From contig JALSSV010000061.1 in NCBI GenBank assembly GCA_026984045.1, positions 1 through 49,301 on the forward strand: DNA of 49,301 nt, written 5' to 3'. Positions 15,209 to 20,038 of this stretch are shown piece by piece. The number at the start of each line of letters is the position of its first letter. The stretch's first letter is position 1. Position numbers and translations under genes: made by a program. The stretch comes from Chromatiales bacterium. Lineage in GTDB: Bacteria > Pseudomonadota > Gammaproteobacteria > UBA6429 > Thiohalophilaceae. The notes below the pieces were generated by a model that did no database searches, was not told the origin of the DNA, and was given only the letters and a program-made list of their open reading frames with translations.

Positions 15209-18426
<3,218 letters not shown>

Positions 18427-18430
<4 letters not shown>

Positions 18431-18909
18431 GCCGAGCCCCCATGACCGTCAAGGGCGCCGAGAAACTGCGCGCCGAACTGAAGGAACTCAAGAGCGAAAA
18501 GCGGCCCAGGGTGATCCAGGCCATCGCCGAGGCCCGCGAGCACGGCGATCTGAAAGAGAACGCCGAATACCACGCGGCCCGCGAGCAGCAGAGCTTCATC
18601 GAGGGTCGCATCAAGGAGATCGAAGCGATCCTCTCCAACGCCGAAATCATCGATCCCGCCAAGCTTGGCGAGTCGGCCGGCAGCAAGATCGTCTTCGGCG
18701 CCACCGTCGATCTCTACGACATCGAGGCCGACAAGGACGTGACCTACCAGATCGTCGGCGAGATGGAAGCCGACATCAAGCACAACCTCATCTCCGTCAC
18801 GTCCCCCATCGCCCGCGCCCTGATCGGCAAGTCCGAAGGCGACGAAGTCGTCGTCCAGGCCCCGGGCGGCGAGCGGGAATACGAGATCGTCAAGGTCCGC
18901 TACGAGTGA
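18427..18909 (+). CDS. greA: Transcription elongation factor GreA
   Basis: A 160-residue factor that stimulates cleavage of backtracked RNA by RNA polymerase. The N-terminal coiled coil carries the tip motif [20 protein letters not shown] with the conserved acidic residues. The C-terminal FKBP-like domain has IFGATVDL..., [21 protein letters not shown] and the [10 protein letters not shown] tail. ATG 18427 overlaps the carB stop (ATGA); the N-terminus [15 protein letters not shown] aligns with E. coli GreA, so the internal ATG 18442 is less likely. Coupling to carB is the usual arrangement. Confidence 0.97.
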
Positions 18910-18926: not shown

Positions 18927-19103
18927 GTGGAAGTGACGCAGAGGGCGCAGAGACGCAGAGTTCGCAGAGGAATTGTGTTGAATGATTTTCATGTCCCGAC
19001 CGATGTCGGGAAAATTGAGCCCAGCATCGTTGATCAACAAACCACCCCATATCACATGAACTCGGCGTCCTCTGCGTCTCTGCGCCCTCTGCGTTCCTTC
19101 CAC
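18927..19103. repeat. MITE-like intergenic repeat, copy A (177 bp)
   Basis: The ends are 34-bp inverted repeats (18927-18960 against 19070-19103, 32 of 34 matching), composed of the units GTGGAAG and ACGCAGAGGGCGCAGAGACG. Inside is a hairpin CCCGAC-CGAT-GTCGGG (18995-19010). Copy B at 19576-19736 shares both ends and this hairpin almost exactly, while the middle is diverged. There is no coding capacity, so it is a non-autonomous element. It ends 12 nt before the start of the next gene. Confidence 0.85.
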
Positions 19104-19115
19104 CGGACCCCCTAA

Positions 19116-19577
19116 ATGCACGCCGGTGAGCGCATCCTCCTGACCCTCTGGATCGGCGGCATGTGGACCGTCGGGTACGTGGTCGTGCCGACCCTGTTCG
19201 ACATGCTCGATTCGCGGATCCTGGCCGGGGCCATCGCCGGCAGGCTGTTTACCATCATCAGCGGTATCGGCATTCTCAGCGCCGTGGTGCTCATCGCCGG
19301 GCAGCTCTTGTGGGCGTCCGTGCCCTGGCGGCGCAACTGGCGTCTCGGGGTGCTGGCGGGCATGCTGGTCATCCTTTTGATCGGCCAGTTCGGCCTGCAA
19401 CCGCAGATGGCCGCCCTCAAGGCCGCCGGCCTCGCCGATCCCGCCAGCGCCGCCGCCTTCGGCCGCCTGCACGGCATCTCATCGGCCCTGTTTCTCGTCA
19501 ACAGCCTGCTGGGGCTGGTGCTGGTGATCTTCGGCCTCGGCGAGCGGGCGGCTTCGAAAGGCAGCAGGCGGGAGTAA
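19116..19577 (+). CDS. DUF4149-family membrane protein
   Basis: A 153-residue inner-membrane protein of unknown function with about four hydrophobic helices (~7-27, ~43-66, ~76-95, ~122-145). The N-terminal ERILLTLWIGGMWTVGYVVVPTLF matches DUF4149 (TMEM205-like in general shape). A gene of this type often lies between greA and yhbY in gammaproteobacteria, so position supports it being native. It is bracketed by two copies of a MITE-like repeat; copy B supplies its TAA stop, so the extreme C-terminus (SKGSRRE) may be shaped by that insertion. No strong Shine-Dalgarno was seen, and ATG 19116 is the natural start. Confidence 0.82.
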   Translation: MHAGERILLTLWIGGMWTVGYVVVPTLFDMLDSRILAGAIAGRLFTIISGIGILSAVVLIAGQLLWASVPWRRNWRLGVLAGMLVILLIGQFGLQPQMAALKAAGLADPASAAAFGRLHGISSALFLVNSLLGLVLVIFGLGERAASKGSRRE

Positions 19578-19736
19578 CGCAGAGGGCGCAGAGACGCCGA
19601 GGAATCGTGTTGTAATGATTTTCATGTCCCGACCGATGTCGGGAAGGTCGTGCGCAGCAGCGGTAATCAGAAAACCGCTTCTTGCAAGATCGACTCGGCG
19701 TCCTCTGCGTCTCTGCGCCCTCTGCGTTTCTTCCAC
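19576..19736. repeat. MITE-like intergenic repeat, copy B (about 161 bp)
   Basis: The left end AACGCAGAGGGCGCAGAGACGC (19576-19597) and right end (19707-19728) are inverted copies of one another. The internal hairpin CCCGAC-CGAT-GTCGGG lies at 19628-19643. The last 44 bp are identical to the end of copy A except for one base. The left end provides the TAA stop of the preceding gene. Confidence 0.85.
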
Positions 19737-19747
19737 TGCTCCTTGAT

Positions 19748-20038
19748 TCAGGGCAACACGATCCCGGGCTTCTCCGCCGGCCGGTAGAAGGCCGCCACGT
19801 GGCCGATGCTGAGAACCCAGTCGGCGCCGGTGGCCTCGGCGATCCGTTCGATCATGGCCTGGCGTTCCTCCCGATCGGCGGCGTTCACCCGCACCTTGAT
19901 GAGTTCGTGGTGGGCGAGGCGGCCGTCGATCTCTTCCAGCACCGCCGGGGTGAGGCCGGCGCCGCCGACGATGACCACGGGCTTGAGATGATGGGCGAGC
20001 TTGCGCAGATGGCGGCGCTGAGTTTGCGTAATGGGCAT
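19748..20038 (-). CDS. yhbY: YhbY-family (CRM domain) ribosome-associated RNA-binding protein
   Basis: A 96-residue single CRM-domain protein. Signature elements are [23 protein letters not shown], then [16 protein letters not shown], then [23 protein letters not shown]. coli YhbY binds pre-50S particles. It is divergent from rlmE, which methylates 23S rRNA, and faces greA across the repeat region; this layout is conserved with E. coli and Pseudomonas. ATG 20036-20038 gives the usual length. Confidence 0.95.

Follow-up and report, generated by a model that had tools for sequence, protein, structure and literature searches.

Two related elements, A and B, lying in a 49,301-nucleotide contig of a Chromatiales bacterium (JALSSV010000061.1; the whole stretch is called the window hereafter) belong to a family of palindromic repeats that is dispersed through the genome, and arms built by the same grammar enclose the gene of a small protein, GxxExxY, in several bacterial phyla. 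A, B and their kin resemble REPINs rather than the classical MITEs. The explanation that we favour, with a probability of roughly 0.58, is that GxxExxY acts as the cognate nuclease of this REPIN-like family and drives both the spread of the elements and their replacement in place, A and B being non-autonomous copies.

The coordinates of A and B and of the genes around them are collected in Table 1. A 15-mer arm pattern (up to 2 mismatches) matched the window 7 times against 0.44 matches expected. An inverted-repeat comparison showed that the arms of A (18927-18969 and 19061-19103) are 88% complementary and those of B (19570-19603 and 19701-19734) 91% complementary, the two arms facing inward in each case, and the right ends of A and B are identical at 43 of 44 bases. 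The two related copies and the right-end identity recognised in the original prediction were thus reproduced; its limits for B needed one correction, since the outer end extends, in a degenerate form, about 8 bases further left (~19568).

Table 1. Positions in the window of elements A and B and of the neighbouring genes
Feature	Position	Strand	Remark
Gene upstream of A	18427..18909	+	Start chosen inside ORF 18355-18909
Element A, whole	18927-19103		Inward-facing arm pair around a middle
Element A, left arm	18927..18969	+	GTGGAAGTG plus CGCAGAG-type units
Element A, middle	18970..19060	.	CCCGACCGATGTCGGG at 18995
Element A, right arm	19061..19103	-	
DUF4149 gene	19116..19577	+	PF13664, 70.8 bits; TAA stop 19575-19577
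Element B, whole	~19568-19736		Inward-facing arm pair around a middle
Element B, left arm	19568..19603	+	Degenerate outer box plus units
Element B, middle	19604..19693	.	CCCGACCGATGTCGGG at 19628
Element B, right arm	19694..19736	-	
Gene downstream of B, convergent	19748..20038	-	

The gene between the two elements encodes a DUF4149 membrane protein, and its TAA does overlap the outer end of B, as had been noticed from the sequence. At 19560-19577 of the window, the protein has a different C-terminal tail in the source genome (G000) and in a genome of the same genus (G001), and the G000 frame enters the end of B. In G001 the stop codon comes earlier and the element begins only further downstream of it, so the stop codon supplied by B is incidental. 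It had also been suggested that the pair could mobilise the gene that it brackets. We take the neighbouring genes to be of greA type (18427..18909) and yhbY type (19748..20038), and DUF4149 occupies the same place between them in five relatives that carry no elements there (G008, G009, G010, G012 and G015); A and B do not mobilise it.

We searched the source genome (2.98 Mb in 104 contigs) for a 26-base arm core with up to 3 mismatches and obtained 56 + 50 matches, compared with 0 for a reversed-pattern control; at up to 6 mismatches, the stretches around these matches comprised 114 arms. When a + arm was counted as paired if a - arm came within the next 600 bases, the genome contained 49 paired-arm elements and 16 unpaired arms, so A and B are not the only two copies. 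As this rule presets orientation, it was verified independently on successive arms separated by no more than 600 bases: the order + - occurred 49 times, - + 3 times (between neighbouring elements), and ++ or -- 0 times. At least two of the unpaired arms (C98:27649 and C67:90588) have a degenerate partner.

Each arm is an inward-facing tandem array of 3-4 CGCAGAG(N) units, with the consensus GTGGAAGnA ACGCAGAGGG CGCAGAGA CGCAGAG nn CGCnGAG. Positions -9, -6 and -3 differ between both ends of an element more than expected by chance (CTGCAAA versus GTGGAAG); at position -3, 9 of the 49 elements have the same base at both ends, versus 22.7 expected. The arms of an element matched each other slightly more than expected by chance in the core (z 3.6) and less than expected in the outer box (z -4.4) and in the inner unit (z -3.0). 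Left and right ends thus seem to be distinct in this family; A and B are among the exceptions, and in A both ends are of the GTGGAAG kind. Of the 28 occurrences of CTTCG pointing inward, 17 are found 9-11 bases outward of the outer box, compared with 0 of 9 for the opposite CGAAG.

The middles, measured after cutting off 36-base arms, range from 23 to 410 bases and are mostly unrelated to each other. Those of A and B are homologous (alignment score 48 versus a shuffle maximum of 13; 84% over 63 bases by BLAST), B being the only whole-length relative of the A middle among the 49 elements. A second local pair, C6:8918 and C6:11686, has middles that are 74% alike over 105 bases, and all other matches between middles were short or nested pieces. 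These two pairs suggest copying over short distances. Likeness between the elements at the A and B sites of G001 was considered as a further sign of local copying and discarded, since it rested on a GTAG repeat (z 6.9, falling to 1.3 once this repeat was masked). A further small repeat, which has ends resembling TTGCATAAATTTGGC and contains the palindrome GTAGCCCGGATG, is nested in both element C102:57247-57611 and element C6:22091-22439, the two matching there over 114 bases (99%) and 54 bases (94%). The CCCGAC hairpin that had been pointed out is indeed common to A and B; among the 49 elements it occurs in these two alone and is therefore not a feature of the family. The broader idea of conserved structured ends around a sequence that turns over holds, now as the description of a dispersed repeat family.

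The sole coding element that we recognised among the pairs, C98:9871-10352, encloses a 125-aa ORF of the TIGR04256/PF13366 family, GxxExxY, and lies between genes that are presumably of trpE and trpG types. The ORF scored 147.5 bits with TIGR04256 (cut-off 35) and 146.1 with PF13366 (cut-off 22), and it is the only match to these profiles in G000. The AlphaFold2 model (pLDDT 94.9) matched the fold of the Cas4 protein SSO0001 (E 3e-4), with modest TM scores by query length of 0.45-0.56 for the four best matches, and lambda-type exonucleases more weakly (E 0.009 and up); a weak match of the sequence to Cas4 profiles was also found. Residues D67, E77, K79, Q91 and Y95, which we assign to a D...ExK...QxxxY motif, are invariant in 17 GxxExxY sequences. 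The conserved candidate active-site residues and the fold make GxxExxY a predicted PD-(D/E)XK nuclease of the Cas4/lambda-exonuclease-like type, presumably an active one. Fold, profile match and invariant residues relate it to Cas4, lambda exonuclease and RecB-type nucleases; in contrast to these, its gene lies between arms of inverted repeats, at the one locus inspected in detail within a trp-type operon, and the protein is smaller than Cas4, whose profiles span 158-180 positions. Sequence searches returned no relative in PDB at E<=0.01 and no matching family in PHROGs. Matches on plasmids were rare (one query matched 8 records out of 72,556 at E<=1e-5) and a single locus was found on viral contigs with one peptide pattern, a rarity that is unlike usual mobile genes and counts against the favoured explanation.

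Arms also adjoin GxxExxY genes in unrelated organisms. Among 11 loci of named organisms, including Planctomycetota, Verrucomicrobia, Methylococcales and Azospirillum, 10 were testable (one was too short), and in 8 of these the gene was flanked by inverted repeats scoring above every shuffle. The CRCRRAG grammar was present in 6 of the 8, loosely in one of them (L089), and the remaining two (L088 and L093) had other sequences. In a larger set, inverted arms with a score of at least 14.5, a threshold chosen after a first look at the data, flanked 41 of 66 GxxExxY loci versus 2 of 114 control windows taken from the same loci; the 66 are 68 loci minus two that were too short, and five of them are gene pieces. 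The other 25 loci stayed below the threshold, and in at least 4 of the 41 above it the repeats had no CRCRRAG unit or a stray match only. Leaving out three of the 41 without a recognisable unit (n=38), proteins with the same arm unit were more alike than the rest (56% versus 48% identity; none in 2000 shuffles of the labels), and in 21 of 38 cases, versus 5 by shuffling, a protein had the arm unit of its closest neighbour. Common ancestry contributes to this agreement between arm unit and protein similarity. GxxExxY genes of the same genome need not agree in their arm units, as L101 and L111 of G002 show.

Comparison of G000 with G001 revealed a change of arm flavour, that is, of the arm unit, throughout the genome. 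At up to 3 mismatches, CGCAGAG-type arms numbered 116 in G000 and 17 in G001, and CACGGAG-type arms 13 and 127, respectively. The single GxxExxY gene of G001 lies in the same gap as that of G000 and shows the same switch, with CGCAGAG arms in G000 and CACGGAG on both sides in G001. Thirteen paired sites of G000 (C19:60630 among them) were found occupied in G001, ten by the other flavour and three CGCRGAG-like in both genomes, the site opposite C19:53987 being empty; as most G001 stretches were fetched for their arms, these numbers overstate the occupied share and are no estimate of it. Four unpaired arms had a G001 counterpart, three of them armed (two CACGGAG, one CGCAGAG) and one, that of C19:61741, empty.

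At the shared sites the two genomes agree in the sequence that directly borders the arms on the outside (permutation p <=0.0002 in four tests, n=12 sites). Immediately inside the arms, conservation is absent at the left end (p 0.66) and barely present at the right end (p 0.03). This comparison does not cleanly separate replacement from fast interior decay, since the outer flanks reach partly into conserved genes. Whole middles showed no likeness at the shared sites (p=0.21, n=11), and the best pair, C68:11544 (z 4.2), may hold common nested repeats. The GxxExxY proteins of the two genomes are 63% identical, with pS 0.65 and dN/dS 0.22, versus 92-93% identity and pS of 0.27 and 0.30 for the genes beside them; pS was 0.26-0.42 for three other genes. 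Change within this element, GxxExxY included, is thus faster than around it, although purifying selection acts on the protein. At a synonymous divergence of 0.26-0.42, neutral middles would be expected to be still alignable if indels were few, so replacement of the interiors in place looks likelier than decay.

In the explanation that we favour, A and B each consist of two inward arms, built of 3-4 CRCRRAG(N) units in tandem, and of a middle that is dispensable; they lie directly next to gene ends and, once single-stranded, would fold into a long hairpin. GxxExxY would recognise the arms of its own flavour as a hairpin or cruciform and open or trim the DNA at them. Repair might then copy another element into the opened site, giving rise to new copies, and the same route could swap the resident arms and middle for those of a new flavour while the outer flanks stay. 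Going further, GxxExxY elements may represent a separate kind of mobile palindromic element, in which the specificities of nuclease and arms change jointly, in the manner of a genetic conflict, and replacement in place proceeds across the genome via cutting and repair; we advance this wider proposal only tentatively.

GxxExxY could instead be a mere passenger of arms that are spread or homogenised by host recombination or by another enzyme. To this question belongs the distribution of genes and arms among genomes. GxxExxY genes were present in 65 of 398 sampled genomes of the phylum, and at least 4 arms were counted in 29 of the 65 positive genomes versus 14 of 333 negative ones (Fisher p 5e-16), arms being found with one degenerate pattern at one spacing and the list of genomes with at least 4 being taken from the table by hand; 36 of the 65 positives had fewer than 4 by this one-spacing pattern. 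Most of the association is driven by one family, f52 (27/45 versus 6/29, p 0.0016), and outside it the difference is not significant (2/20 versus 8/304, p=0.12). CGCAGAG-type arms among 40 relatives were seen in 7 of 15 positives and 2 of 25 negatives (p 0.008). With another spacing, applied to chosen genomes, 0 of 7 GxxExxY-negative genomes were armed and 13 positive ones had 1 to 116 arms, five of them having 1 or 2 only, near the control. Tandem or chance sites may account for some of the 14 armed negatives (G279, G358 and G335), but G074, G400 and others show inward pairs. Genomes in which real arm pairs occur and no PF13366 gene scores over the cut-off are G074, G043, G145, G400, G192 and others. 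A PF13366 search of 11 armed or near-armed genomes devoid of GxxExxY gave 0 over the cut-off and one match below it, in G192.

In G074, whose assembly is 99% complete, contigs C1-C4 carry 31 arm matches, those listed being CACAGAG-type and partly arranged as inward pairs. Either the GxxExxY gene was lost from this genome or another enzyme serves instead. Armed genomes of this sort count against GxxExxY as the partner and for the passenger. The presence of the gene in only one of the 49 pairs of G000 also speaks for the passenger. A passenger would hardly account for arms that adjoin GxxExxY genes in unrelated organisms, for an arm unit that tracks protein similarity, even with the part due to common ancestry, or for the agreement in flavour, seen in two genomes of the same genus, between dispersed arms and the GxxExxY element resident there. 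We consider the passenger unlikely.

A role of the elements at the RNA level, as transcript ends, terminators or hairpins that stabilise mRNA, with structure under selection and sequence homogenised by gene conversion, was judged still more improbable. The placement of 48 of the 49 elements, relative to genes called by our own hexamer-based gene caller, agrees with such a role: 34 lie between co-directional genes, 12 between convergent and 1 between divergent ones, 1 has one neighbour uncalled, none (0/48) is inside a gene, and the median distance to the neighbours is 16-18.5 bases. Purging may, however, spare exactly the same places. RNA folding predicted a long hairpin for both A (-99 kcal/mol, z -11.3) and B (-101.9 kcal/mol, z -9.8), which also speaks for an RNA role; selection on structure alone, though, leaves unexplained both the change from CGCAGAG to CACGGAG in the two arms at ten shared sites and the enclosure of GxxExxY genes. 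A known RNA family was discarded for A and B, since Rfam matches in the window at the gathering score were limited to one tmRNA and two tRNAs.

With MITEs, proposed in the original prediction, the elements have in common that they are short, mostly non-coding and dispersed and that they have inverted ends. Inverted ends, together with the systematic difference between the two ends, could be those of classical MITEs moved by a DDE transposase, a reading that we rejected as very improbable: the search for target-site duplications that had been proposed gave none (longest match between own flanks 5.45, versus 5.39 for permuted ones, 49 elements), little internal sequence is common to the elements, and the same sites carry other flavours in G001. 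No transposase with matching ends came to notice among the elements, the one gene recognised between such arms being that of GxxExxY.

REPINs are inverted doublets of REP sequences associated with RAYT (Bertels and Rainey 2011, PMC3116915), and REP palindromes are tagged with GTAG or CGTC (PMC3733652). Measured against these descriptions, the elements are likewise short conserved inverted sequences with a spacer, forming an inverted doublet, folding into hairpins, extragenic, present in high copy number and associated with an enzyme gene. They differ in arms of 3-4 tandem units of 8-9 nt without the GTAG tag, in middles that are mostly unrelated and in the partner, which would be of PD-(D/E)XK type, not a Y1 transposase, and whose gene lies inside the arm pair. 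The arm consensus GTGGAAGnAACGCAGAGGGCGCAGAGACGCAGAG contains neither a GTAG nor a CGTC tag, and no RAYT gene is flanked by these arms. That the arms might be substrates of the Y1 transposase of the genome deserves almost no credence: its one RAYT gene (Y1_Tnp, PF01797; locus L082, C98:16243-16563) is on the contig of the GxxExxY element but is flanked by repeats of another kind, the GTAG-tagged GTAGGAGCGGCGCCCTCGCCGCGA, and the nearest CGCAGAG arm found is ~2.8 kb away. In G001, repeats of the GTAGGAGCGGCGCCCTCGCCGCGA type also sit within several of the arm elements, a nesting of one repeat family in another.

GxxExxY is a small, almost unstudied protein family. In one open-access library (PMC) the name is barely present, with one mention in passing, and PF13366 and TIGR04256 are hardly mentioned; in the same library PDDEXK_3 and five arm strings were not found, and nearly all broad repeat terms were without a match. 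A link to cognate hairpin repeats would assign this family a biological role, and a class of intergenic repeats would gain a partner that is not RAYT. It would also supply a bacterial case in which dispersed elements have been replaced genome-wide.
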